Below are positions 1,414 to 14,294 of a DNA stretch of 64,000 nucleotides, one piece after another (position 1 is the first letter of the stretch; each line of letters opens with the position of its first letter). Position numbers and translations under genes: made by a program. The notes beneath the pieces are model-generated. The model searched no databases and had not been told where the DNA came from. It saw only the letters and a program-made list of their open reading frames with translations. The stretch comes from Halocynthiibacter styelae (GTDB lineage Bacteria > Pseudomonadota > Alphaproteobacteria > Rhodobacterales > Rhodobacteraceae): positions 62,001 through 126,000 of the forward strand of contig NZ_JADCKQ010000009.1 in the NCBI RefSeq assembly GCF_016123485.1, written 5' to 3'.

Positions 1414-2610
1414 TCACATTTTTCGCTTGAGTTCCGCCAGAACCGCATCTGTATCTGCCCCAAAACGCGGCGGGGCACGGCGGTAAGTAACCGGGGTTGC
1501 AGAGAAGTTCAGAGGGTTGCCCAGCACCGGGATCACACCGTCGGCAGCGTCATCCGAGGGCAGACCCGGTGCCATGTTGCGCGCGGCCACCTGGTCGCTT
1601 TCCATCACCTGATCCAGCGTATTCACAGGGCCAACCGGCACTTTGATCGCTTCAAGACCTGAAATAATCTCTGCCATCGGGATCTTCGCCAGTTCAGGTT
1701 CAATCATCGCATAAAGCGTGTCGCGGTTTTCAAGCCGCGCGGGGTTGGTCGCATAACGCGGATCAGAGGCATGTTCGCCCAGACCCAGCCACGTCATAAA
1801 TCGCTGAAACTGCGTGTCATTGCCAACAGCCAGGATCACATGCCCATCACTTGCCGCACAGGTTTTATAGGGCACAATATTGGGGTGACCATTGCCACGC
1901 CGTTTCGGCAGTTCGCCCGATACCCGGTAGTTCACCCCCTCATTGATCAGCCATGCAATCTGACTGTCCACCAATGCAATATCAATCTGCTGCCCTTCCC
2001 CGGTCGCATCGCGATGACGCAGGGCCGCGAGGATCCCCGTGGTCGCATACATGCCGCACATCACATCTGCGATGCCAACGCCGACTTTCATCGGCTCGCC
2101 TTCGGGTTCGCCCGTCAGCGACATGATCCCGCCATAGCCTTGGGCCATCAGATCATAGCCGGGTTTTGAAGCATTCGGGCCGGTCTGACCGTAGCCAGAG
2201 ATCGAACAATAAACGAGGCCAGGCAGATCATCTTTCAGGCTGGCATAATCCAGCCCGTATTTCGCAAGAGACCCGGGTTTAAAATTCTCAATCAGCACAT
2301 CTGCATCTGCCGCCAGATCACGGATCACCTGCTGGCCCTCGGGCGTGGAAATATCCACAGAAACGGATCGTTTATTGCGATTGGCACAGATGAAATAAGC
2401 ACTGATATCACTGTCAGACCCATCCGCCATTTCCACATAGGGCGGGCCCCAGGCGCGGGTATCATCGCCGCCCGTGCGCGGATTTTCGATCTTGATCACA
2501 TCCGCCCCCATATCCCCCAGAAGCTGGGTGCAGGTCGGACCAGCCAGAATGCGCGACAGATCGAGAACTTTCAGCCCGTGCAGGGGGCCATTTACCGGGG
2601 TTTCAGACAT
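1414..2610 (-). CDS. CaiB/BaiF family (class III) CoA-transferase
   Basis: A 398-residue protein with the class III CoA-transferase layout. The N-terminal part LKVLDLSRILAGPTCTQLLGDMGADVIKIE is the family Rossmann start, followed by NRNKRSVSVD, LIENFKPG and a GYGQTGP loop. Asp182 in VGVGIADVMCGMYA matches the catalytic aspartate of formyl-CoA transferase. These enzymes move CoA between carboxylic acids through an aspartyl-CoA intermediate. It is the third gene of the cassette, starting 2 bases after the TPP-enzyme stop with GGAAAG as ribosome binding site. Its role is probably to activate the acid that the neighbouring acyl-CoA enzyme uses. The substrate cannot be read from sequence; formyl/oxalate, succinate/3-sulfinopropionate or a branched acid are all possible. 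Confidence 0.9.
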   Translation of the reverse strand: MSETPVNGPLHGLKVLDLSRILAGPTCTQLLGDMGADVIKIENPRTGGDDTRAWGPPYVEMADGSDSDISAYFICANRNKRSVSVDISTPEGQQVIRDLAADADVLIENFKPGSLAKYGLDYASLKDDLPGLVYCSISGYGQTGPNASKPGYDLMAQGYGGIMSLTGEPEGEPMKVGVGIADVMCGMYATTGILAALRHRDATGEGQQIDIALVDSQIAWLINEGVNYRVSGELPKRRGNGHPNIVPYKTCAASDGHVILAVGNDTQFQRFMTWLGLGEHASDPRYATNPARLENRDTLYAMIEPELAKIPMAEIISGLEAIKVPVGPVNTLDQVMESDQVAARNMAPGLPSDDAADGVIPVLGNPLNFSATPVTYRRAPPRFGADTDAVLAELKRKM

Positions 2611-2612
2611 GA

Positions 2613-4229
2613 TCAGATCTTTCCATCATAGGCGCGGGCTTCAATTTCTGCCGCAATCACGGTGAATGTACCCGCCGTTTTCGCCGCTTCAAGTGCTGCG
2701 CGCAGCTCGTCACGATTTGTCACACGATAGCCCTGCCCGCCCAGCGATCTGCCAAGACCTGCAAAATCATGCCGCCCAAAGGCCACCCCATGTTTCGCCA
2801 TCTGACGGCCACGTTGTTTCAGCTCGATCAGGGCAAGTTCCGCATCGACAAAGACAACAAAGATTGGGTTGCCGCCCAATTCCGCAGCAGTCGCCAGTTC
2901 TCCCGCGCACATCAATGTGCCCGCATCACCTGAGAAACTGATCACCTGACGATCCGGGGCTGCGAATTTCGCCCCCATCGCCAGAGGCAGCGCGCAGCCC
3001 ATGGTGCACAGCGCCGAGCTTTGCAGCAAACCACGTGGGCTGTCACAGTTCCAGATCTGAGACAGAAGGATACGGTGTGCGCCACTGTCTGCGGTGGCGA
3101 TGGTGCCTTCCGGCATGGCGTCACGACATTCCGCGATCACCGCTGCAGGCCCCCAGTCTTCCGATACGTCAAACAGGTCCGAAAGCGCCGCTTTCGCCGT
3201 CGCAATCTTATTTCCAGACCAAGTTTCAACTGGCTCAACACCCTGGCTCAGCGCCTTCAGAGTTGCGCCAGTATGCGCGATGAAATTCACTGTCGCCTGA
3301 TGCATGTAATGATCATTCATAACCGGCGCGATATCGATGACATTAACCTGCGCAGGATCCCAGATTTCACGCCAGCCCGGGCGCATTTCAATCGGGTCAT
3401 AGCCCGCGCAAATGATCAGATCCGCGTCTTTGACAAAAGGCACAAGCACCGTATCTGCACGCGGCGACAGGCCCGCGCCCCCAAGGCAAAGCGGATGATC
3501 CTCGCGCAAAACGCCCTTAGCTTTGTAGCTGGTGATCACGGGGATGTTGAAGCGTTCTGCAAACGCCTGCAGATCCGCGTGAGAACCTTCAGTCAGCACA
3601 TCAAGCCCGGCAATAATGACAGGTTTCTTCGCTTTACCCAACCATTCACGCGCCTGCGCAAGATCCGGGCCTAAAGGAACCACTGGACTTGCAGGCGCGA
3701 GGCGACGCAGACGTTTTGGGGCAACCTCCATATCTGCAACCGAAATCGGCACGTCAATATGCACAGGGCCCGGGCGCGGCGCCATCGCAATAGACACCGC
3801 CTTATCTGCAATAATATCAGCACCTTCAGCAGTTAACTTAAAGGTTGCCTTGGTGACCTCATTTAGTACCGCCTGGTGATCCAGAACCTGGTGGGTATAG
3901 GTCAGGGCTTCGTCATCATCGACACAACCTGACAGCACAATCATCGGCACGCGATCCTGATGGGCGTTGGCAATCACATTGACGCCGTTCAGAACCCCAG
4001 GCCCTAATGTCGCCACCAGGATACCAGGCGCGCCATCCACGTGATGCACGCCTTCCGCCATAAAGCCCGCCGCATTTTCGTGCTTACAGAGGGTGAATTT
4101 GATGCCCGCGTTTTCCAGCGCATCCACCATGGTCAGAACCTCGCCGCCGGGCATGCCAAAGGCGTGGCGGCATCCGGCCTCATACAGGCGGCGGGCCACC
4201 AGATCTGCGGCACGTGTTACTTCAGTCAT
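2613..4229 (-). CDS. Thiamine-pyrophosphate-dependent enzyme, acetolactate synthase-like
   Basis: A 538-residue TPP enzyme with the three-domain order of the acetolactate synthase/oxalyl-CoA decarboxylase group: Pyr domain (about 1-170, activating Glu51 in KHENAAGFMAEG), central domain (about 185-330), PP domain (about 365-530). Asp435 of the cofactor motif (GDAG, instead of GDG) is present. The Asn expected near 461 in the GDG-N26-N motif is Val (VVFVDAEL where homologues usually read VVFNDA), so one usual Mg2+ ligand is missing. The start overlaps the acyl-CoA dehydrogenase stop by ATGA, so the genes are translationally coupled. It probably cleaves or decarboxylates a 2-oxo or 2-hydroxyacyl compound of the cassette's pathway. 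A real acetolactate synthase of valine synthesis is unlikely, because there is no ilvH and the context is acyl-CoA metabolism. Confidence 0.85.
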   Translation of the reverse strand: MTEVTRAADLVARRLYEAGCRHAFGMPGGEVLTMVDALENAGIKFTLCKHENAAGFMAEGVHHVDGAPGILVATLGPGVLNGVNVIANAHQDRVPMIVLSGCVDDDEALTYTHQVLDHQAVLNEVTKATFKLTAEGADIIADKAVSIAMAPRPGPVHIDVPISVADMEVAPKRLRRLAPASPVVPLGPDLAQAREWLGKAKKPVIIAGLDVLTEGSHADLQAFAERFNIPVITSYKAKGVLREDHPLCLGGAGLSPRADTVLVPFVKDADLIICAGYDPIEMRPGWREIWDPAQVNVIDIAPVMNDHYMHQATVNFIAHTGATLKALSQGVEPVETWSGNKIATAKAALSDLFDVSEDWGPAAVIAECRDAMPEGTIATADSGAHRILLSQIWNCDSPRGLLQSSALCTMGCALPLAMGAKFAAPDRQVISFSGDAGTLMCAGELATAAELGGNPIFVVFVDAELALIELKQRGRQMAKHGVAFGRHDFAGLGRSLGGQGYRVTNRDELRAALEAAKTAGTFTVIAAEIEARAYDGKI

Positions 4230-5461
4230 TTTACGGATCCTTCGGCGATTTTTACGTAACCATCACGGGTTTGCGGCACTTTAATGCCCAGCAGGCCACC
4301 CGCAACCTGTGTTTTGAGAATTTGCGCCGTACCTCCCCCGATTGTGAACATACGGACATCGCGGTACATGCGTTCAAGCGGCTCCTGGCTGCCATAACCG
4401 CGCGCACCAAACATCTGCAGCGCGTCATTCACAACAGATATCGCATTTTCACTGGCGAACATTTTCGCTCGCGCTGCCAGATGCATGTCCGGAAAGCCCT
4501 TGCCGCACAGTGTCTGCGCCGCCTCACGTAACATCAGACGCGACGCATGCACTTTTGCGTCCATCTCAGCCAACATCCATTGCAACCCCTGAAATTCCCC
4601 AATGGGCCGCCCGAATTGTTCCCGTTCCTTCAGGTAGCGCGTGGCATGGTCCAGCGCGCCAGCGGCGATGCCCATAGCAATTGTCCCCGCACCCACGCGC
4701 TGACTGTTATAAGCTGTCATCAGATCGGCAAAACCACGTTTAAAACCGGAGGGCGGCAGAACGACCATATCATCTGCGATAAAGGCATCCTCAAAATGCA
4801 ACTCTGCCTCGGGCATGCCACACAGCCCCATGGTACGTTCACGTCGCGCGACAGTGAATCCTTCGCAATCGTCACCATTGTCCGGGTCATGTAACAGAAG
4901 AAATCCACCAATGCCCTGATCCACACCTGCATCATCCAGCACCCGCGCAAAAACCAGATGCAGCTTTGACATGCCCCCGCCGGTGATCCAGTGTTTCACC
5001 CCGTTCAGACGATATCCGCCCTTCACCTTTTGCGCTGTGCTGGTCATTTCTGTGGCGGCGGATCCCGCATCCGGTTCTGTGATGCAGATCGCTGGTTTAT
5101 CGCCCGCGAGCACATATTTCGCGCAGAATGCCTTCTGTTTCTCCGTCCCATAAGCCATCACCGCGCTGATACCACCCATATTGGCCTCAACAATAATACG
5201 GGCGGTCAGGGTGCAGTGGCGGGCCACCTCTTCAACCACATCAACGACCTGAAGGAAACTCGCCCCCTGCCCGCCATATTCACGTGGGATCGACATACCC
5301 ATGAGTTTCGCAGCCACAAGATCGGGAATGTTCTCATGACAATATTCGCGGCTTTGGTCCCATTTATGCGCCCGCGCCGCAAGCGTCGGGCCAAGGCCAC
5401 GGGCCGCTTTCAGAGGCAGGGTTTCGGTAGGGATCACAGGTGAAGCAGAAAGGTCAGACAT
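4226..5461 (-). CDS. Acyl-CoA dehydrogenase-fold flavoprotein, possible desulfinase-type
   Basis: A 411-residue acyl-CoA dehydrogenase-family protein. The FAD/acyl-CoA motifs are present: CITEPDAGSAATEMTSTA, GVKHWITGGG, REQFGRPIGEFQ and GARGYGSQEPLERMYRDVRM. The start at 5461 has AAGGA 8 bases upstream; an open frame continues further but would run into the divergent LysR gene. Neither usual catalytic Glu is found: the C-terminal position reads IGGGTAQI (not YEGT) and the isovaleryl-CoA-dehydrogenase-type position has Gln254 (NSQR, not LERL). Gln at that place and Arg88 (TARIIVEANMG) resemble the reported Gln246/Arg84 of 3-sulfinopropionyl-CoA desulfinase, which is also found beside a class III CoA-transferase. 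I infer, with moderate doubt, a desulfinase or other non-dehydrogenating role. Confidence 0.85.
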   Translation of the reverse strand: MSDLSASPVIPTETLPLKAARGLGPTLAARAHKWDQSREYCHENIPDLVAAKLMGMSIPREYGGQGASFLQVVDVVEEVARHCTLTARIIVEANMGGISAVMAYGTEKQKAFCAKYVLAGDKPAICITEPDAGSAATEMTSTAQKVKGGYRLNGVKHWITGGGMSKLHLVFARVLDDAGVDQGIGGFLLLHDPDNGDDCEGFTVARRERTMGLCGMPEAELHFEDAFIADDMVVLPPSGFKRGFADLMTAYNSQRVGAGTIAMGIAAGALDHATRYLKEREQFGRPIGEFQGLQWMLAEMDAKVHASRLMLREAAQTLCGKGFPDMHLAARAKMFASENAISVVNDALQMFGARGYGSQEPLERMYRDVRMFTIGGGTAQILKTQVAGGLLGIKVPQTRDGYVKIAEGSVK

Positions 5462-5553: not shown

Positions 5554-6414
5554 ATGAACATCCAGAGCCTGCGTACCCTGTTAAGCATCTCAGAAACCGG
5601 ATCTTTTTCAGAAACGGCGGGCCTTCTGAACATGACCCTGCCTGCGGTTTCCATGCAGATGAAAGCCCTGGAAGAAAACCTTGGTGCGAAGCTGTTTGAC
5701 CGCACTGCCCGCCCGCCACGGATGACACCAGAGGCACGGGCGCTTTTGCCGGATGTCCGGGTGATCCTGGCCGCACGCGCCCGTATTGAGGCCATGAGCC
5801 AGGAAGATGATGGATTACGCGGGCGTTACCGGATCGGATTTGTGCCGACAACCAGCGTGCGTCTGCTGCCCGGATTTCTGAAACAGGCGCAGAGCCAGGC
5901 ACCAGAGGCCCGGTTTGAAGCCTCAACCGGGTTGTCCGCAACCCTGTGCAGCGCCGTGCAGGCGGGCACTTTGGACTGCGCCGTGGTCACAGATGACGAT
6001 CTGCCCGACGGGCTGCACTGCACGACGATCAGCACCGAGGATATGGCACTGGCCCTGCCGGATGGGTTTGAAGGTGCAGCCCTGTCTGATCTGCCCAATG
6101 CCCTGCCGTTCCTGCAATTCCTGCCTGCTGGGGGCATCGGGCGACATATCGGCACCTGGCTGCGGGAAAACCGGCATCAGCCGAAGGATCGCATCACGTT
6201 TGATATGGTGGAACCGATCATTGAATGCCTGTCACATGGGATCGGTTATACGATCCTGCCACGTCCGGATCTGGAACGTTGGCCTGACAAACCCTTCCAC
6301 ATCCGCCCCCTGCCCGGCACGCCGCTGACGCGGGATCTGGTCTTTGTAGCACGTGATGGCATGCTGGGCGAAACTGCGCGGGCACAGATCCTTGCGATGC
6401 TTCAGAACCGCTGA
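5554..6414 (+). CDS. LysR-family transcriptional regulator of the acyl-CoA cassette
   Basis: A 286-residue LysR-type protein. The N-terminal winged helix-turn-helix covers about 1-60 (LRTLLSISETGSFSETAGLLNMTLPAVSMQMKALEENLGAKLFDRT in shape), followed by a LysR substrate domain beginning near RYRIGFVPTTSVRLLPGFL. It reads divergently from the acyl-CoA dehydrogenase gene across a 92-base gap (5462-5553) that is AT-rich beside the LysR start. The usual logic of LysR pairs is that it controls the divergent operon with a pathway compound as inducer. The start has AAGGA about 10 bases upstream. Its 3' end overlaps the end of the convergent narR by 13 bases. Confidence 0.9.
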   Translation: MNIQSLRTLLSISETGSFSETAGLLNMTLPAVSMQMKALEENLGAKLFDRTARPPRMTPEARALLPDVRVILAARARIEAMSQEDDGLRGRYRIGFVPTTSVRLLPGFLKQAQSQAPEARFEASTGLSATLCSAVQAGTLDCAVVTDDDLPDGLHCTTISTEDMALALPDGFEGAALSDLPNALPFLQFLPAGGIGRHIGTWLRENRHQPKDRITFDMVEPIIECLSHGIGYTILPRPDLERWPDKPFHIRPLPGTPLTRDLVFVARDGMLGETARAQILAMLQNR

Positions 6415-7097
6415 TCGTCAATGCCGGGCGTCGGTTTTGCCAGCCCGGTCAGATCGGCCTTATTTGTCAGACGTACGTCATATCCGCTGACCTCAACCCC
6501 ATACGGGCCCAGCGCCTTAATCGCACGGGACAGATTTTCCGGGGTCATACCGAGGTAAGACGCCAAAGCACGTTTCTCCAGCGGCAGGCGGAATTCATCC
6601 GCGCCATATTCCACGCTTTTGCGCAGCATATAGTTGGCCAGCCGTTCAATTGAGGATCGCAGCTTCAGGTTCTTACTGCTTTTCACAACAGACCGGTAAC
6701 ATTGCGCAAGTTCCGTCACCACGGCCCGGGCAAAGCCTGCGTCTTTATCAAAAACATCACGCACGTCAGCTGAAGGCAGCATGATCAGGCGGGATTTCTC
6801 CATTGTGCGGGAACTCATGAGATAAGGTGCATCGCGCACTGTGGCGGCCAGAATGAAGGTTGAGACCGGGCGTACAATCGCCATGGTGCTGTCGCTACCA
6901 TTCCAGGACGCATAAAGTTCGACGCTGCCCGACATCAGCACATAAAGAAAATCCGCACGATCCCCTTCATGTGTCAGTTCCACCTGTGGCGGGAACATCT
7001 GCACATAGGCCCCCCGCATCAGACGTTCAAAGTTGTCGGATTCCATATTTCGAAAGAGATCCAGTTTCAGGATCTCCGGAATGTCTGACTCGCGCAT
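6402..7097 (-). CDS. narR: Crp/Fnr-family regulator, probable NarR
   Basis: A 231-residue Crp/Fnr regulator: cyclic-nucleotide-binding-like beta roll (about 15-125), dimer helix (about 125-155), and winged helix (about 165-215). The recognition helix carries ExxSR (ENLSRAI), which in FNR reads TTGAT-type half-sites. The N-terminal cysteine set that holds the [4Fe-4S] cluster of FNR is absent; the only cysteine lies in LAQCYRS. That matches NarR of Paracoccus, a cluster-free FNR relative that activates narKGHJI in response to nitrate or nitrite and sits divergently upstream of narK. Here it is also divergent from narK1, with FNR-type boxes in the shared gap. DNR/NnrR-type regulators are the alternative; the position favours NarR. 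Confidence 0.8.
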   Translation of the reverse strand: MRESDIPEILKLDLFRNMESDNFERLMRGAYVQMFPPQVELTHEGDRADFLYVLMSGSVELYASWNGSDSTMAIVRPVSTFILAATVRDAPYLMSSRTMEKSRLIMLPSADVRDVFDKDAGFARAVVTELAQCYRSVVKSSKNLKLRSSIERLANYMLRKSVEYGADEFRLPLEKRALASYLGMTPENLSRAIKALGPYGVEVSGYDVRLTNKADLTGLAKPTPGIDDQRF

Positions 7098-7139
7098 GGC
7101 TTGCTACCCTTTTCCCCTGCAACGTGTATCACGTCGCAA

Positions 7140-7153
7140 TTGACAAAAATCAA
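7140..7153. promoter_or_regulatory. FNR/NarR-type box
   Basis: TTGACAAAAATCAA is a TTGA-N6-TCAA palindrome, the FNR-family recognition pattern. It lies about 43 bases upstream of the narR ATG, so it could serve autoregulation or repression of narR as well as the divergent nar promoter. Confidence 0.7.
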
Positions 7154-7182
7154 GTAACATTTTCGAATTTGCAAACCGCAGC

Positions 7183-7196
7183 TTGACAAAATGTCG
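7183..7196. promoter_or_regulatory. Degenerate FNR-type half-site pair
   Basis: TTGACAAAATGTCG carries one good half-site (TTGAC) and a poor second half. It lies midway in the narR-narK1 gap and might be a weak or regulator-specific operator. The same TTGAC-A4 start as the box at 7140 is the reason for listing it. Confidence 0.35.
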
Positions 7197-7252
7197 CAAC
7201 GCACACCACGCATTTCGGTTATCCATTTATTTCAACAGGCAAAAATCCGCTT

Positions 7253-7266
7253 TTGATCTAAGTCAA
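7253..7266. promoter_or_regulatory. FNR/NarR-type box upstream of narK1
   Basis: TTGATCTAAGTCAA matches TTGA-N6-TCAA exactly, with the canonical TTGAT left half. Its centre is about 78 bases upstream of the narK1 ATG, a distance fitting a class II activator site for a transcript with a leader of roughly 35-40 bases. It is the best candidate for the anaerobic activation site of narK1K2GHJI. Confidence 0.7.
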
Positions 7267-7337
7267 GTTTTCCCCCAACCGGAAGGCGCAAACCCTGACC
7301 AGAGCCCACAAAACGGGCAGAGTATCTGGAGGGACAG

Positions 7338-8786
7338 ATGGAGCTACAAAACAAAGCCACAAGTCTCTGGCGAAATTTCTTTAACGTCAGAATGGTTCAA
7401 ATCCGTACATTTCACATGACATGGTTTGCGTTCTTCGCATGTTTCTTCGCATGGTTCGGCATCGCGCCGATGATGATCATCGTGCGCGAAGAACTGGGCC
7501 TGACCAAATCCCAGGTCGGCTGGACCATCATCGCATCCGTTGCCGTGACCGTGTTCGCGCGCTTCTTTATCGGCTGGTTCTGTGACCGGGTCGGCCCGCG
7601 CATCGCCTATACATCCCTGCTGCTAGTCGGGTCTTTGCCTGTTGCGGGGATCGGCCTTGCCAACAGCTTTGAAAGCTTTCTGATCTTTCGCCTGCTGATC
7701 GGTGTGATTGGCGCGTCTTTCGTGATCACTCAATACCACACCACCGTGATGTTTGCGCCCAACGTGGTTGGTACTGCAAATGCGACCTCTGCGGGCTGGG
7801 GCAACCTGGGTGGCGGTGTCACACAGATCGTTATGCCTTTGATCTTCACAGGCTTTATCGTTGGCTTCGGTTTCACAGATGCGGCTGCATGGCGTGCGTC
7901 TATGGTACTGGTTGGTGGTGTGACATTTGGCATCGGGATCGCTTATTTCTTCCTGACACAGGACGCGCCTGACGGGAACTTCAAAGACCTGCGCGCCCAG
8001 GGCAAGATGCAGTCAAAGGACAAAGTCACTGGCGCATACTTTGCTGCAATGGCCGACTACCGTGTCTGGCTGATGTTCGTGATCTACGGCGCGTGTTTTG
8101 GCATTGAGCTGTTGGTCAACGGGTCTATCGCGCTCTATTTTGTCGACTACTTTGACTTCTTCAAAGGCATGCCACTGGCCCGTGCTGCGGTGACCGCGGG
8201 TATGATTGCCGGTCTGTTCGGTCTGATGAACATCTTTGCCCGGACATTGGGCGGCATCTTTGGCGACAACTTTGCAGCACTCTGGGGCCTGAAAGGTCGC
8301 ACAACCTGGTTGTTCATTGCCCTGTTGGGCGAAGGCCTTGCGCTGATGTTGTTCAGCCAGATGCCCATCCTGGTTCTCGCGATCCCAACCCTGATCCTGT
8401 TCTCTCTGTTCACACAGATGTCTGAAGGCGCAACCTATTCCGTGGTGCCATTCGTCAACAAAAAAGCACTTGGCGCGGTTGCCGGTGTGGTGGGTGCAGG
8501 CGGGAACGCCGGTGCGGTTCTGGGCGGGTTCCTGTTGAAAAGCGAAGCTTACAACAGCAACTGGGACGATGCCTATCTGACCATTGGTATGATCGTAACC
8601 TGCGTATCCGTTCTGGCCCTGTTCATCCGTTTCTCACCTGAACAGGAAGCTGAAGAACGCGCCTTGTTTGAAAAAGCCAGCATCGATGGCCTGCAGATGC
8701 ATGCAGATCAAGCCAACGCAGCCCTGGCACGATCCGTGGCGATTGTTGAGGACTACAACCGCACACACCCTGACAACAAAGCATAA
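7338..8786 (+). CDS. narK1: NarK1-type nitrate transporter (MFS)
   Basis: A 482-residue, 12-helix major facilitator of the nitrate/nitrite porter family. The family signatures are present: the GWFCDRVGPR loop between helices 2 and 3, and the glycine-rich helix-5 motif SAGWGNLGGG. NarK1-type proteins are thought to import nitrate with protons, which starts respiration before an internal nitrite pool exists. The start has GGAGG 6 bases upstream of ATG 7338. It is the first gene of the nar operon. In Paracoccus denitrificans NarK1 and NarK2 are fused in one 24-helix protein; here they are separate genes 61 bases apart. The tail after about residue 440 is hydrophilic and cytoplasmic. Confidence 0.92.
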   Translation: MELQNKATSLWRNFFNVRMVQIRTFHMTWFAFFACFFAWFGIAPMMIIVREELGLTKSQVGWTIIASVAVTVFARFFIGWFCDRVGPRIAYTSLLLVGSLPVAGIGLANSFESFLIFRLLIGVIGASFVITQYHTTVMFAPNVVGTANATSAGWGNLGGGVTQIVMPLIFTGFIVGFGFTDAAAWRASMVLVGGVTFGIGIAYFFLTQDAPDGNFKDLRAQGKMQSKDKVTGAYFAAMADYRVWLMFVIYGACFGIELLVNGSIALYFVDYFDFFKGMPLARAAVTAGMIAGLFGLMNIFARTLGGIFGDNFAALWGLKGRTTWLFIALLGEGLALMLFSQMPILVLAIPTLILFSLFTQMSEGATYSVVPFVNKKALGAVAGVVGAGGNAGAVLGGFLLKSEAYNSNWDDAYLTIGMIVTCVSVLALFIRFSPEQEAEERALFEKASIDGLQMHADQANAALARSVAIVEDYNRTHPDNKA

Positions 8787-8847
8787 CAATACTCACAGGC
8801 GGGTCATCCGGACCCGCCGCAACCCTCACACTGAGGAGGAACTAAAA

Positions 8848-10455
8848 TTGGGACAAGATCTTAGAAACTATACACCAGAAGACGAAACCTTCTGGCAGAA
8901 TGAAGGGAAGGCGATTGCGAACCGCAACCTCTGGATCTCCATTCCATCGCTGCTTTGCGGCTTTGCGGTCTGGCTGTACTGGGGCATCATCACCGTTCAG
9001 ATGATCAACCTTGGGTTCGGCTTTGAAAAATCTGACCTGTTCACTTTGGGTGCGATTGCTGGTCTGACCGGTGCGACCCTGCGTATCCCGTCCACATTCT
9101 TCGTGCGTATCGCGGGGGGACGGAACACTATTTTCTTCACCACCGCCCTGTTGATGATCCCTGCCCTTGGCGCGGGTTACTATCTGCAAGACCCGAACAC
9201 ACCGCTGTGGAAATTCCAGGTTCTGGCATTCCTGTCCGGTATCGGTGGCGGTAACTTCTCATCCTCCATGTCCAACATTTCTTTCTTCTTCCCGAAAAAG
9301 ATGCAGGGCTATTCCCTGGGCATGAACGCGGGTCTTGGCAACTTTGGTGTGACCACCATGCAAATCCTGATCCCGCTGGTGATGACCTTTGGTCTGTTCG
9401 GTGGCGAAGGCCGTGAGCTGGTGAACACTTCCGGCACACTGATCGGTAAAATCCCTGCGGGCACTGAAACTTACATTCAGAACGCTGGTTTTGTCTGGCT
9501 CTTGTTCCTCGTACCGCTTGCCTTTGCAGGCTGGTGGGGCATGAACAACATCCGTGATGAACATGTATCCCCTGACATCCCGTCCCCTGTAGGCGCATTT
9601 GGCACCATCACCGGTATGTTGCTGGTGGGTTTCCTGACCGCCGCTTTTGGTCTGTGGCTGATGTTGCCTGCGAAAGTTGGTGGGTCTGGCTTTATGATCT
9701 CTAAGTGGATCGTTCTGCCCATCGTGATCGCGCTGACTGTGTTCCTCTTGAAAATGATCCCCGGTCAGGTCGGTCAGAACCTGTCACGTCAGTATAAGAT
9801 CTTCGGCAACAAGCACACCTGGGCGATGACCGTGATCTACACCATGACCTTTGGTTCTTTCATCGGTTATGCGGCGACCTTTGCCCTGGCCATCAAAGTT
9901 GTCTTCGGCTTCCAGCACGTTGAGATTGACGGTGTGATGACCCATGATCTGGCCAACCCGAACGGCCCTTCTGCCCTGATGTATGCCTGGATGGGCCCCT
10001 TCATCGGCGCGCTGATCCGTCCGGTTGGTGGTATGATTGCTGATAAACTGGGTGGCGCACGTGTGACACAGTGGATCTCTATCGTGATGGTTGGTTCCGC
10101 CCTGGGTGTGGCTTACTTCCTGAAGCAGGCTTACGTGTCCGCAACCCCGGAAGAGTTCTTCTTCCCCTTCATGATCCTCTTCCTGATCCTGTTCGCAGCA
10201 ACTGGTATCGGCAACGGGTCCACCTTCCGCACCATCGCTGTAGCGTTCAACAAAGAGCAGGCTGGTCCTGTACTGGGCTGGACCGCTGCGGTGGCTGCTT
10301 ATGGCGCCTTCATCATCCCGAAAGTGTTTGGTGAGCAGATCAAAGCCGCGACACCTGAATACGCGCTTTACGGTTTTGCAGTCTTCTACGGCGTCTGCAT
10401 CCTGATCAACTGGTGGTTCTACCTGCGCCCCGGCGCCTACATCAAGAACCCTTGA
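8848..10455 (+). CDS. narK2: NarK2-type nitrate/nitrite antiporter (MFS)
   Basis: A 535-residue major facilitator with a glycine-rich nitrate-porter motif (GMNAGLGNFGVTT) and a second copy in its C-terminal half (FAATGIGNGSTFR). NarK2-type proteins exchange periplasmic nitrate for cytoplasmic nitrite, the steady-state mode during nitrate respiration. I chose the TTG at 8848 because GAGGAGG stands 8 bases before it and the homologous sequence begins there. An in-frame ATG at 8668 would place 60 residues over the end of narK1 and give no family-like sequence. Together with NarK1 this corresponds to the NarK1-NarK2 fusion of Paracoccus. The 110-base gap to narG holds a hairpin. Confidence 0.9.
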   Translation: MGQDLRNYTPEDETFWQNEGKAIANRNLWISIPSLLCGFAVWLYWGIITVQMINLGFGFEKSDLFTLGAIAGLTGATLRIPSTFFVRIAGGRNTIFFTTALLMIPALGAGYYLQDPNTPLWKFQVLAFLSGIGGGNFSSSMSNISFFFPKKMQGYSLGMNAGLGNFGVTTMQILIPLVMTFGLFGGEGRELVNTSGTLIGKIPAGTETYIQNAGFVWLLFLVPLAFAGWWGMNNIRDEHVSPDIPSPVGAFGTITGMLLVGFLTAAFGLWLMLPAKVGGSGFMISKWIVLPIVIALTVFLLKMIPGQVGQNLSRQYKIFGNKHTWAMTVIYTMTFGSFIGYAATFALAIKVVFGFQHVEIDGVMTHDLANPNGPSALMYAWMGPFIGALIRPVGGMIADKLGGARVTQWISIVMVGSALGVAYFLKQAYVSATPEEFFFPFMILFLILFAATGIGNGSTFRTIAVAFNKEQAGPVLGWTAAVAAYGAFIIPKVFGEQIKAATPEYALYGFAVFYGVCILINWWFYLRPGAYIKNP

Positions 10456-10500
10456 TTTCCGACACTTCAGTTCCGGCCACCCTGGCCGGGGCTGAGCCAG

Positions 10501-10540
10501 CCCGCCCCGCCCTTCCGCACTTCCCGTGCACCGGGGCGGG
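10501..10540 (+). other. GC hairpin between narK2 and narG
   Basis: CCCGCCCCG (10501-10509) pairs with CGGGGCGGG (10532-10540) around a 22-base loop. No T-run follows; instead the narG ribosome binding site (AAGGAG) comes 12 bases later. It therefore looks like an mRNA stability or processing element, or a leaky stop that sets the narK:narG ratio, rather than a full terminator. Confidence 0.5.
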
Positions 10541-10565
10541 CCAGCAAACCTAAGGAGAACATGAG

Positions 10566-13500
10566 ATGAGCCATCTGCTCGACCGTCTGAATTTCTTCCA
10601 GTCAAAGCAACTGGATACCTTTTCCAACAAGCATGGTCAGACCACAAATGAGGACCGCGCCTGGGAAGATGTTTACCGCAACCGCTGGCGTCACGACAAA
10701 GTTGTGCGTTCGACCCACGGTGTGAACTGTACCGGCTCATGTTCGTGGAAGATCTACGTAAAATCCGGCATCGTGACCTGGGAAACCCAGCAAACTGACT
10801 ACCCACGCACACGCCCTGATCTGCCGAACCACGAACCACGCGGCTGTGCCCGTGGGGCCAGCTATTCCTGGTATCTCTATTCTGCCAACCGGGTGAAAAA
10901 CCCGTTGATCCGCGGTAAGCTGATGAAAGCCTGGCGTCGTATGCGCAAGAACATGGAACCCGCTGCGGCCTGGAAAGCCCTTCAGGAAGATCCGGTTCTG
11001 CGCGCAAGCTATGTGAAAACCCGTGGTAAAGGCGGCTTTGTGCGCGCGACCTGGGATGAGAGCACTGAGATCATCGCCGCCGCCAACGCCTATACCGTGA
11101 AAACATACGGCCCCGACCGCGTCTTTGGCTTCTCGCCAATTCCTGCGATGTCCATGGTGTCTTATGCCGCTGGTTCACGCTACCTGTCGCTGCTTGGCGG
11201 CGTCTGCATGTCATTCTATGACTGGTATTGTGACCTTCCACCTGCCTCTCCGATGACCTGGGGTGAGCAAACCGACGTGCCTGAATCTGCTGATTGGTAC
11301 AATGCGGGTTACCTGCTGTTGTGGGGGTCTAACGTTCCACAAACACGTACCCCTGATGCACACTTCTATACAGAAGCCCGTTATCGCGGCACGAAATCCG
11401 CCGTTGTTTCGCCTGACTATTCAGAAGCCGCTAAGTTTGGTGACATCTGGCTGAACGCAAAACAGGGCACCGATGCGGCGCTGGCCATGGCTTTTGGCCA
11501 CGTAATCCTGCGCGAATTCCACTTGGATCGTCAGGCCGAATATTTTGAGGATTACACCCGCAAATATTCTGACTTTCCGATGCTTGTCACCATGGAAGAA
11601 AAAGATGGCCGCATGATCCCGGGTCGTTTCCTGCGGGCGGATGATCTTGCCGGTAAGCTTGGTGAAAAGAACAATCCCGAATGGAAAACCATCGCCTGGG
11701 ACAGTGAAAATGGCCTTTGTGCACCAAACGGGTCTGTCGGTTATCGCTGGGGCGAAGACGGTGAATGGAACCTTGAGGAACGCGCCAAGGGCAAAGACAC
11801 TGATCTGAAGATGTCCTTCATCCTTGAAGAAGATCACGACGAAGTTGTCGGCGTTGATTTCCCGTATTTCGGCGGTGAAGCCACTGAAAACTTCCATAAA
11901 TGTGACCACCCTGACGTTCTGACCCGCAATATTCCGGTCAAGAAAATCAAGTCCGGCAAAAAGACCATCACCGTTGCCACTGTGTTTGACCTCTTCTGTG
12001 CGAACTATGGTCTGGATCGTGGCCTGGGCGGTGAATGGGTATCTAAAGACTATAACGACGATATCCCCGGCACCCCGGCCTGGGCTGAGAAAATCACAGG
12101 CGTTTCCCGTGATAAAATCGAAGCCGTGGCCCGTGAATTCGCCCTCAACGCTGAGAAAACCAATGGTAAATCCATGGTCATTCTGGGCGCGGGTCTGAAC
12201 CACTGGTACCACATGGATATGAACTATCGCGGTATCATCAACATGCTGGTGATGTGTGGTTGTATCGGTCAATCCGGCGGTGGCTGGAGCCACTATGTGG
12301 GCCAAGAAAAACTGCGTCCGCAGACCGGTTGGCAGCCGCTGGCCTTTGGTCTCGACTGGTGCCGTCCTCCACGTCACATGAACTCCACCTCTGCCTGGTA
12401 TGCGCACACAGATCAGTTCCGTTACGAACAATTGTCAGCAAATGAAATCCTGTCCCCGACCGCACCGGAAGGTGACTGGGATATCAACCTGATTGATTAC
12501 AACATCCGTGCGGAACGCATGGGCTGGTTGCCGTCCGCACCACAGCTGAAAACCAACCCACTTGAGGTGGCCAAAGCTGCGAAAGAAGCTGGCAAAGAGA
12601 TCCCGGCTTATGTGGCTGAACAGCTGAAATCCGGCGATCTGGAAATGTCCTGTGAGGATCCGGATGCACCGGAAAACTGGCCACGCAACCTGTTTATCTG
12701 GCGTTCCAACCTGCTTGGTTCTTCCGGTAAAGGTCACGAATATTTCCTCAAGCACCTGCTTGGCACCGATCACGGTGTTCTGGGCAAGGACCTGGGTGAA
12801 GAAGGCGGCGCAATGCCGAAGGAAGCCAAATGGCACAAGGACGCCCCGAAAGGCAAACTTGACCTTCTGGTGACCATCGACTTCCGCATGTCCACCACTG
12901 CTGTGTATTCAGACATCGTTCTGCCGACCGCAAGCTGGTATGAGAAAGACGATCTGAACACCTCAGACATGCACCCGTTCATCCACCCGCTTCAGGCGGC
13001 GGTTGATCCGGCGTACGAAAGCAAATCTGACTGGGAAATCTTCAAATCCATCGCGCAGAAATTCAGCGAAGTCGCACCAGAAATCCTGGGCGTTGAAACT
13101 GACATTGTGCAATTGCCAATCCTGCATGACACCCCTGCCGAAATCGCGCAGGATCAAGTGCTTGACTGGAAGAAAGGCGAATGTGATCTGATCCCTGGTA
13201 AAACCGCGCCAAACTATATCGCGGTCGAACGGGATTACCCGAACCTGGGTAAAAAATTCACCTCTGTCGGTCCTCTGCTTGAAAAGCTGGGCAACGGCGG
13301 CAAGGGCATCAACTGGAACACCGAAACGGAGGTGCACCACCTTGGTGATCTGAACGGTCGTGTACTGGAAGATGGCGTTTCCAAAGGTCAGCCAAAGCTT
13401 GATACTGCGATTGATGCGGCGGAAATGATCCTGATGCTGGCGCCTGAAACCAACGGCGAAGTTGCGGTGAAAGCCTGGAACGAACTGTCTAAGGCAACCG

Positions 13501-14294
13501 GTCGTGAACACGCCCACCTGGCCCTGCCGAAGGAAGACGAAAAGATCCGTTTCCGTGACATCGCGGTGCAACCGCGTAAGATCATTTCCTCCCCTACCTG
13601 GTCCGGTATCGAAAGCGAAGAGGTCTGCTATAACGCAGGTTACACCAACGTGCATGAGCTGATCCCATGGCGTACCCTGACCGGCCGTCAGCAGCTGTAT
13701 CAGGATCACCTGTGGATGCGCGCATTTGGTGAGGGTTTTGTCGGCTGGCGTCCTCCAGTGGATCTGAAAACCATCAATGCGGATATTCAGGACGATGGCG
13801 ATAATCTGATCCTCAACTTCATCACACCGCACCAGAAATGGGGCATTCACTCTACTTACAGTGACAACCTGATGATGCTGACCCTGAACCGGGGTGGCCC
13901 TGTGGTCTGGATTTCCGAAACTGATGCGAAATCTGCCGGGATCGTCGATAACGACTGGGTCGAAGTCTATAACGCCAATGGTGCCCTGACTGCGCGTGCG
14001 GTTGTGTCCCAGCGGATGAAAGACGGTACGATCTTCATGTATCACGCCCAGGAAAAAATCGTGAACACACCGGGTTCTGAGAAAACCGGTCATCGCGGTG
14101 GCATCCACAACTCGGTCACACGGGCAACCGTGAAACCAACCCATATGATCGGGGCCTATGCGCACCAGTCCTATGGTTTCAACTACTACGGCACAGTTGG
14201 TTCCAACCGCGATGAATTCGTGGTTGTGCGTAAAATGCGCAAAGTCGACTGGCTTGATACCCCTGCAACCCAATCTCCGGAGGCAGCAGAATGA
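10566..14294 (+). CDS. narG: Membrane-bound respiratory nitrate reductase, alpha subunit NarG
   Basis: A 1242-residue molybdopterin oxidoreductase (E. coli NarG has 1247). The FS0 cluster ligands are His51, Cys55, Cys59 and Cys94, which is exactly E. coli H49/C53/C57/C92 shifted by two. The molybdenum-binding Asp is Asp223 in WYCDLPPASP. There is no N-terminal RR signal, in agreement with a cytoplasmic active site. NarG holds Mo-bisMGD and reduces nitrate to nitrite with electrons from NarH. The start has AAGGAG 8 bases upstream; the 3' end overlaps narH by ATGA. Confidence 0.97.
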   Translation: MSHLLDRLNFFQSKQLDTFSNKHGQTTNEDRAWEDVYRNRWRHDKVVRSTHGVNCTGSCSWKIYVKSGIVTWETQQTDYPRTRPDLPNHEPRGCARGASYSWYLYSANRVKNPLIRGKLMKAWRRMRKNMEPAAAWKALQEDPVLRASYVKTRGKGGFVRATWDESTEIIAAANAYTVKTYGPDRVFGFSPIPAMSMVSYAAGSRYLSLLGGVCMSFYDWYCDLPPASPMTWGEQTDVPESADWYNAGYLLLWGSNVPQTRTPDAHFYTEARYRGTKSAVVSPDYSEAAKFGDIWLNAKQGTDAALAMAFGHVILREFHLDRQAEYFEDYTRKYSDFPMLVTMEEKDGRMIPGRFLRADDLAGKLGEKNNPEWKTIAWDSENGLCAPNGSVGYRWGEDGEWNLEERAKGKDTDLKMSFILEEDHDEVVGVDFPYFGGEATENFHKCDHPDVLTRNIPVKKIKSGKKTITVATVFDLFCANYGLDRGLGGEWVSKDYNDDIPGTPAWAEKITGVSRDKIEAVAREFALNAEKTNGKSMVILGAGLNHWYHMDMNYRGIINMLVMCGCIGQSGGGWSHYVGQEKLRPQTGWQPLAFGLDWCRPPRHMNSTSAWYAHTDQFRYEQLSANEILSPTAPEGDWDINLIDYNIRAERMGWLPSAPQLKTNPLEVAKAAKEAGKEIPAYVAEQLKSGDLEMSCEDPDAPENWPRNLFIWRSNLLGSSGKGHEYFLKHLLGTDHGVLGKDLGEEGGAMPKEAKWHKDAPKGKLDLLVTIDFRMSTTAVYSDIVLPTASWYEKDDLNTSDMHPFIHPLQAAVDPAYESKSDWEIFKSIAQKFSEVAPEILGVETDIVQLPILHDTPAEIAQDQVLDWKKGECDLIPGKTAPNYIAVERDYPNLGKKFTSVGPLLEKLGNGGKGINWNTETEVHHLGDLNGRVLEDGVSKGQPKLDTAIDAAEMILMLAPETNGEVAVKAWNELSKATGREHAHLALPKEDEKIRFRDIAVQPRKIISSPTWSGIESEEVCYNAGYTNVHELIPWRTLTGRQQLYQDHLWMRAFGEGFVGWRPPVDLKTINADIQDDGDNLILNFITPHQKWGIHSTYSDNLMMLTLNRGGPVVWISETDAKSAGIVDNDWVEVYNANGALTARAVVSQRMKDGTIFMYHAQEKIVNTPGSEKTGHRGGIHNSVTRATVKPTHMIGAYAHQSYGFNYYGTVGSNRDEFVVVRKMRKVDWLDTPATQSPEAAE

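Follow-up and report, generated by a model that had tools for sequence, protein, structure and literature searches.

Genomic context of the acd operon

The window analysed here, a 64-kb stretch of Halocynthiibacter styelae DNA, carries an operon of three minus-strand genes spanning positions 1414–5461, which encode a protein with the acyl-CoA dehydrogenase fold (Acd), an enzyme dependent on thiamine diphosphate (ThDP) and a CoA-transferase (CoAT). The features under study are the following.

4226–5461, minus strand: acyl-CoA dehydrogenase-fold protein Acd, 411 aa
2613–4229, minus strand: ThDP-dependent 2-oxoacid decarboxylase-like enzyme of the AlsS/acetohydroxyacid synthase (AHAS) superfamily, 538 aa, with PF02776, PF00205 and PF02775
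1414–2610, minus strand: class III CoA-transferase, 398 aa, with PF02515
5554–6414, plus strand: LysR-type regulator, divergent from the acd operon, with PF00126 and PF03466

The acd stop codon and the start codon of the ThDP enzyme gene overlap in the 4-nt sequence ATGA, and a gap of 2 nt separates the ThDP enzyme gene from that of the CoA-transferase. In comparison with Halocynthiibacter namhaensis (L052; L numbers denote individual loci throughout), dN/dS was 0.054 for Acd, 0.046 for the ThDP enzyme and 0.048 for CoAT, at dS values of 1.1–1.7 that are near saturation; because of these low ratios the operon genes are not taken to be chance reading frames.

Family assignment of Acd

Acd scored 632.1 bits against NF042439 (3-sulfinopropanoyl-CoA desulfinase), above the curated equivalog cut-off of 600, while its next-best NCBIfam family reached 263 bits and the ten other NF042439 matches in the same genome at most 253 bits. 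The best solved chain was 5af7, the desulfinase of Advenella mimigardefordensis DPN7 (435 bits by phmmer). The AlphaFold model of Acd (pLDDT 88.9) lies closest to structure 5ahs (Z 56.3, rmsd 1.6 over 389 residues, 52% identity), compared with Z 48.9 for the best dehydrogenase structure. A preliminary description of this DNA had drawn attention to an IGGGTAQI motif, to Arg88 and Gln254, and to the loss of both usual catalytic glutamates, and the translation and alignments agree with it on each point. The motif begins at residue 374, Arg88 and Gln254 align with Arg84 and Gln246 of 5af7 (residues that are important in the known desulfinase), and Gly376 stands at the position of the dehydrogenase catalytic glutamate. 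In seven dehydrogenases from the H. styelae genome the catalytic residue aligns with Acd residue 376 (glutamate in four, aspartate in one) or 254 (glutamate in two), so that Acd, with Gly376 and Gln254, is without glutamate at both positions. All 35 Acd rows compared, the window among them, have R88, Q254 and G376, a count that leaves out one broken copy. That copy, on plasmid pW43B of Parasedimentitalea marina (L044, ~8465–8983), appears to lie in four pieces with no gene in the annotation table, and adjoins an intact ThDP enzyme gene.

In the Acd tree, 36 desulfinase rows including 5af7 share one side of a starred branch (100*), apart from the ordinary dehydrogenases; the outgroup consisted of the seven dehydrogenases of the same genome, and the tree carries a long-branch warning. 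An ordinary dehydrogenase is ruled out by the curated model, the tree, the residues and the structure, and an isovaleryl-type dehydrogenase by the replacement of that type's Glu254 with Gln. Acd is thus very probably a member of the 3-sulfinopropionyl-CoA desulfinase family, as the preliminary description had proposed, and judging from its sequence its reaction is in all likelihood the release of sulfite from a small sulfur-containing acid. The context of such proteins is given in PMC5373536 and PMC8360864, the latter noting that the sulfinopropionyl enzyme has AGG where YEG is usual.

The CoA-transferase

The class III fold of CoAT is evident from its match to PF02515 (418 bits). Its nearest curated model is the succinate--glutarate CoA-transferase NF052585, at 476 bits and below the cut-off of 750, and Asp153, presumably the catalytic residue, aligns with the conserved YD aspartate of five chains. 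A neighbouring class III CoA-transferase had been offered as a parallel to the known desulfinase systems; the class is correct, and the kinship lies elsewhere. In the CoAT tree the window protein falls in a 13-row set with ThDP enzyme partners (95*), and the CoA-transferases of act-acd pairs fall in two other starred sets (97*, 99*). By sequence, the window CoAT belongs with the ThDP enzyme and not with the known Act clade. The 97* and 99* sets also hold the CoA-transferases of L034, L086 and L045, all loci with a ThDP enzyme gene, and therefore both kinds of CoAT occur together with Acd and the ThDP enzyme.

The ThDP-dependent enzyme

The product of the second gene carries three TPP_enzyme Pfam domains and is clearly a member of the AlsS/AHAS superfamily. 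Among the 25 best of 54 NCBIfam families, acetolactate synthase families included, no cut-off was reached; the best scores were 339.6 bits for PRK08322 (cut-off 509) and 295.1 bits for AlsS (cut-off 510). All 31 rows compared, Acd-linked and unlinked alike, carry the ThDP/Mg residues E51, D435 and D462 as well as R386 and K471. The AlphaFold model matches best the HKA synthase BbmA (Z 47.4, rmsd 2.1, 510 residues aligned), followed by AHAS, benzaldehyde lyase and 2-hydroxyacyl-CoA lyase (HACL) at Z 44–45, a ranking of the model that gives no clear functional call.

These nearest families and structures are what would be expected of an acetolactate synthase-type carboligase or a 2-hydroxyacyl-CoA lyase, which would join or split propionyl- or pyruvate-derived units after desulfination. 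Opposite the invariant Arg386 and Lys471, the Klebsiella and Bacillus AlsS proteins have His or Ala and Gln, respectively (alignments read by eye), and the fullest gene clusters described below include aminotransferase and succinate semialdehyde dehydrogenase (SSADH)-like neighbours. Both observations argue against a carboligase or lyase, which we consider the least probable of the alternatives.

Another possible functional model is the Microcystis 2-oxoglutarate decarboxylase MaKGD, in which the substrate was docked on Gln254, Lys386 and Lys471, and activity was affected by mutation of E50, D435, D462 or M410 (PMC10418658). Compared by residue number, the window enzyme is identical to MaKGD at A384, H385, M410, G434, D435, G437, D462, L467 and K471, and by the same numbering it has R386 and K471 where MaKGD has Lys386 and Lys471. 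The ThDP enzyme probably decarboxylates a 2-oxo acid that bears a distal anion.

Linkage of Acd and the ThDP enzyme

In the family sample 18 of 198 genomes had an Acd above the family cut-off, and in the phylum sample 7 of 398, H. styelae being counted in each. Homologues of the ThDP enzyme were present in 50 of the 198 (E <= 1e-190) and 14 of the 398 (E <= 1e-150), and both proteins together in 13 and 5 genomes, respectively. In the family sample the ThDP enzyme thus occurs in 13/18 Acd-positive versus 37/180 Acd-negative genomes (Fisher p 1.4e-5), and in the phylum sample in 5/7 versus 9/391 (p 5e-7); removal of the six adjacent cases from the family sample leaves 7/12 versus 37/180 (p 0.007), all three values being uncorrected for kinship. 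The gene lies in the Acd locus itself in 7 of the 24 genomes found through Acd (6/18 in the family, 1/6 in the further phylum genomes), some contigs in this count ending short. The overall figure of 15 of 36 Acd loci is biased upward because eight of these loci were reached through the ThDP enzyme or through both searches (L044, L045, L052, L057, L086, L092, L123 and L128).

The ThDP enzyme tree, a quick tree of 63 of 97 rows after thinning with SH-aLRT support only, places the window and H. namhaensis among unlinked rows. Its 15 Acd-linked rows require 7 label changes, at least five of them forced by starred branches, and Acd and the ThDP enzyme have therefore probably been joined repeatedly. 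On the Acd tree the corresponding label (14/35 rows) requires 11 changes. Such repeated linkage can be read directly from the genomes, as can the family of Acd, the fold and cofactor residues of the ThDP enzyme and CoAT, and the operon layout.

A homologous LysR gene is present in 11 of the 13 clustered Acd–ThDP enzyme loci; the window's own LysR gene reached no NCBIfam cut-off among the 25 best of 49 families. Beyond Acd, the ThDP enzyme, CoAT and LysR, the gene clusters recurring in at least three of the 36 Acd loci are an ABC ATPase-like family (5 loci), a tetratricopeptide repeat (TPR)-like family (4), a second LysR family (3), an aminotransferase (3) and an aldehyde dehydrogenase (ALDH; 3). 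No further enzyme that would make 3-sulfinopropionate (3SP) was found among these shared clusters; inspection by eye covered 10 of the 21 Acd-only loci as well. In an alphaproteobacterium of another family, the surroundings of Acd include, ~2 kb away, an Xsc-like ThDP gene and, next after it, a Pta-like gene (L173:11565–14342, by eye).

The ThDP enzyme–CoAT pair in periplasmic glucan operons

The ThDP enzyme and CoAT also travel together without Acd. In the loci of the 80 nearest relatives of the ThDP enzyme, out of 527, tblastn found a CoA-transferase in 69, and in unlinked loci the pair is often followed by genes for a TPR-like protein, OpgC, MdoG/OpgG and a glycosyltransferase taken to be OpgH. 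By sequence, then, the pair often heads operons for periplasmic glucans. Clusters for TPR, OpgC, OpgG and the glycosyltransferase, assigned from example members, occur in 67, 57, 64 and 62 of 95 loci, the 13 Acd-linked loci among these accounting for 1, 0, 0 and 0. Operons of this kind are seen in L058, L117, L090 and many of the loci L053–L131, and a Sinorhizobium mexicanum plasmid (L051) has the order ThDP enzyme–OpgC–CoAT. The TPR-like family, of ~460–500 aa, occurs both in glucan operons and near Acd (L090:12809–14323; L035:9920–11302; L040:9487–10893; L041:11109–12527), and the L090 and L117 members, which were those searched, gave no Pfam match. A literature search joining osmoregulated periplasmic glucan (OPG), CoA-transferase and thiamine returned nothing.

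The pair might accordingly still serve glucan acylation in H. styelae, supplying an acyl-CoA for OpgC, with Acd an incidental neighbour. The operons above speak for this, including the placement beside OpgC in S. mexicanum, as does the fact that H. styelae keeps an OPG operon without the pair: TPR-OpgC-OpgG-OpgH homologues lie on contig C9 (L206), and no match to the ThDP enzyme or CoAT was found in the 16 kb read around them. The sole copy of the ThDP enzyme in this genome (E <= 1e-190) adjoins Acd and overlaps it by 4 nt; together with the several changes of Acd linkage on the ThDP enzyme tree, the catabolic genes in three linked clusters, and the absence of OpgC, OpgG and OpgH clusters from all 13 linked loci, this makes the glucan reading very unlikely for the window.

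Fuller clusters and a proposed route

Several Acd-linked clusters contain further enzymes. In Labrenzia DG1229 (L128), genes in one direction encode Acd, the ThDP enzyme, a PF03601 transporter, a class I aminotransferase, CoAT and an ALDH, the last being an SSADH (717 bits, above the cut-off of 646). A Hyphomicrobiales metagenome-assembled genome (L092) has Acd, the ThDP enzyme, an aminotransferase and CoAT before the contig ends, and Cupriavidus necator pBB1 (L045) has TauE, an FAD oxidase, CoAT, Acd, an aminotransferase, the ThDP enzyme, an ALDH and an acetylornithine deacetylase-like gene. The Cupriavidus ALDH is SSADH-like (606 bits, below the cut-off of 646), and the Labrenzia and Cupriavidus clusters also include a possible sulfite exporter. 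The aminotransferases of these clusters are nearest to the aspartate transaminase PRK06107, below its cut-off. Homologues of the aminotransferase or ALDH were found in 4 of 15 linked loci, compared with 0 of 82 unlinked ThDP enzyme loci and 0 of 21 Acd-only loci. Because proteins of the linked loci served as queries, this count is partly circular; the L086 ALDH match covers ~304 residues.

On the basis of the trees and these fullest clusters, the cassette may be the core of a route by which a 2-oxo acid carrying a sulfinate at its end yields propionyl-CoA and sulfite, a reading to which we give a probability of about 0.4. Homocysteine sulfinate would be transaminated to 2-oxo-4-sulfinobutyrate, the sulfinate analogue of 2-oxoglutarate. 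The ThDP enzyme would decarboxylate this to 3-sulfinopropanal, which a succinate semialdehyde-type dehydrogenase would oxidise to 3SP; 3SP would then be converted to its CoA ester (3SP-CoA), and 3SP-CoA to propionyl-CoA and sulfite. The window would supply three of the five enzymes (the ThDP enzyme, CoAT and Acd), with the aminotransferase and the aldehyde dehydrogenase coming from elsewhere in the genome. We infer what the ThDP enzyme acts on, what accepts the CoA and which amino acid feeds the route, and the full route from homocysteine sulfinate has about the same probability; the relatives of the cassette suggest that it degrades oxidised homocysteine. The aldehyde dehydrogenase step is supported by the finding that GABase (gamma-aminobutyrate transaminase plus SSADH) converts homohypotaurine to 3-sulfinopropionic acid, in a study that describes the sulfinic group as bioisosteric with carboxyl (PMC11396700). 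Upstream of one Acd–ThDP enzyme–CoAT cluster lies a class III (omega) aminotransferase (L043:10785–12200), an arrangement that would be in keeping with 3-sulfinopropanal also being formed from homohypotaurine.

A number of observations weigh against this route. Neither an aminotransferase nor an ALDH match was found in the 64-kb window, and the nearest homologues in the genome (50–52% identical for the aminotransferase, 64–66% for the ALDH) may be general enzymes. Acd occurs in only 6 of the 80 nearest ThDP enzyme loci of 527. Acd-linked rows cluster on the ThDP enzyme tree (none of 500 shuffles of the label required so few changes), so that the 15 cases do not stand for as many separate events. 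Since the pair stands beside OPG genes in many loci, it has another job in many hosts. The likeness to MaKGD is one of residue numbers; by the same numbering the proteins differ at 254, 382, 408, 436, 465 and 531 (the window having Leu254, Ser382, Cys408, Ala436 and Leu465 for Gln, Val, Ala, Gly and Tyr, respectively), the role of Lys386 and Lys471 comes from docking and not from mutation (PMC10418658), and a Lys opposite K471 is also found in chain 13bb. Finally, 17 of the 24 genomes found through Acd have no ThDP enzyme gene in the Acd locus, and in Variovorax paradoxus TBEA6 deletion of ilvX, a putative acetolactate synthase gene near act-acdA, gave no phenotype on 3,3'-thiodipropionate (TDP; PMC6370202).

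The last two points favour a simpler explanation, in which CoAT and Acd degrade 3SP that is taken up or made from 3-mercaptopropionate by the known Act-Acd chemistry (PMC6370202, PMC5373536), the ThDP enzyme being a passenger or a means of carbon disposal. In TBEA6, IlvX (VPARA_05550) is encoded between acdA/act (05440/05450) and mdo (05600) and is over-represented on TDP and 3SP (PMC6370202). On TDP the cell would have no use for a step that precedes 3SP, and the IlvX result fits a passenger equally well. Plain use of 3SP is at odds with the several changes of Acd linkage on the ThDP enzyme tree, the co-occurrence of the two proteins across whole genomes, and the placement of CoAT in the clade of ThDP enzyme partners. 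It also lacks an evident supply: 3-mercaptopropionate dioxygenase, the known source of 3SP, had no match in the H. styelae genome with one dioxygenase protein as query, and the same query gave one clear and one marginal match in the 24 Acd-positive genomes. This conclusion uses the single-protein search, covering one dioxygenase family, and not PF05995, which matched in 0 of the 24 genomes and in a control missed one of a pair of plasmid-borne genes near Acd that carry the annotation cysteine dioxygenase. Plain 3SP use is on these grounds considered unlikely.

The proposed sulfinate route, if true, would provide a natural source of substrate for Acd in alphaproteobacteria without a mercaptopropionate dioxygenase match. 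It would also name a sink for homocysteine sulfinate; among the papers listed in the literature search there was none on bacterial catabolism of this compound beyond decarboxylation by glutamate decarboxylase and none on a bacterial pathway through which its carbon and sulfur are used, and the search gave nothing on 3-sulfinopropionate in roseobacter. For the widespread ThDP enzyme–CoAT pair that heads many periplasmic glucan operons, it would offer a testable activity. The new part is the ThDP partner of the desulfinase, the desulfinase itself and the Act-Acd chemistry being already known.

Beyond the LysR gene, positions 6402–14294 of the window hold a Crp/Fnr-type regulator, two nitrate transporter-like MFS genes and a narG-like gene (by eye), a neighbourhood read as nitrate respiration genes beside the cassette.

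Comparison with known systems

The window Acd shares with the known Acd/AcdA proteins of A. mimigardefordensis DPN7 (5af7/5ahs) and V. paradoxus TBEA6 its fold, the equivalents of Arg84 and Gln246, and the missing catalytic glutamate, and the systems have class III CoA-transferase and LysR neighbours in common. Unlike those systems, the window has a ThDP enzyme as operon partner, a CoA-transferase of another subclade and no mercaptopropionate dioxygenase match in the genome. The preliminary description had held the ThDP enzyme to lie outside the known 3SP gene pair and to point to a 2-oxoacid or organosulfur route. The second idea gains support from the Acd linkage, the ThDP enzyme tree and the aminotransferase and SSADH-like neighbours; the first holds in that the ThDP partner is new, with the reservation that the TBEA6 TDP cluster already has an acetolactate synthase-like gene in its acdA-act-mdo region. 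Desulfinase, acyl-CoA dehydrogenase and acetolactate synthase are named together in PMC6370202 and in a rumen metagenome study; by locus number, crotonase-family genes separate IlvX from act-acdA, with mdo beyond, and the likeness is one of annotation.

The OPG operons (opgC-opgG-opgH) of Rhodobacterales have the same ThDP enzyme–CoAT pair at their head in many loci, whereas in the window the pair stands next to Acd, away from the OPG operon of the genome. With the cyanobacterial 2-oxoglutarate decarboxylases MaKGD and ScKGD, the window enzyme is predicted to share ThDP-dependent decarboxylation, and residue numbers suggest that it may also share the basic residues at positions 386 and 471; the Labrenzia and Cupriavidus clusters add an SSADH-type partner as in the setting of those enzymes. 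In contrast to them, the window enzyme, whose substrate we infer, sits with a desulfinase and a CoA-transferase. More tentatively than the core route itself, the whole may be an undescribed pathway in which each enzyme is the sulfinate version of a step in the bypass from 2-oxoglutarate through succinate semialdehyde and succinate to succinyl-CoA, with a dehydrogenase-fold desulfinase acting last, and for which the ThDP enzyme–CoAT pair would have been recruited repeatedly, here away from the glucan operon.

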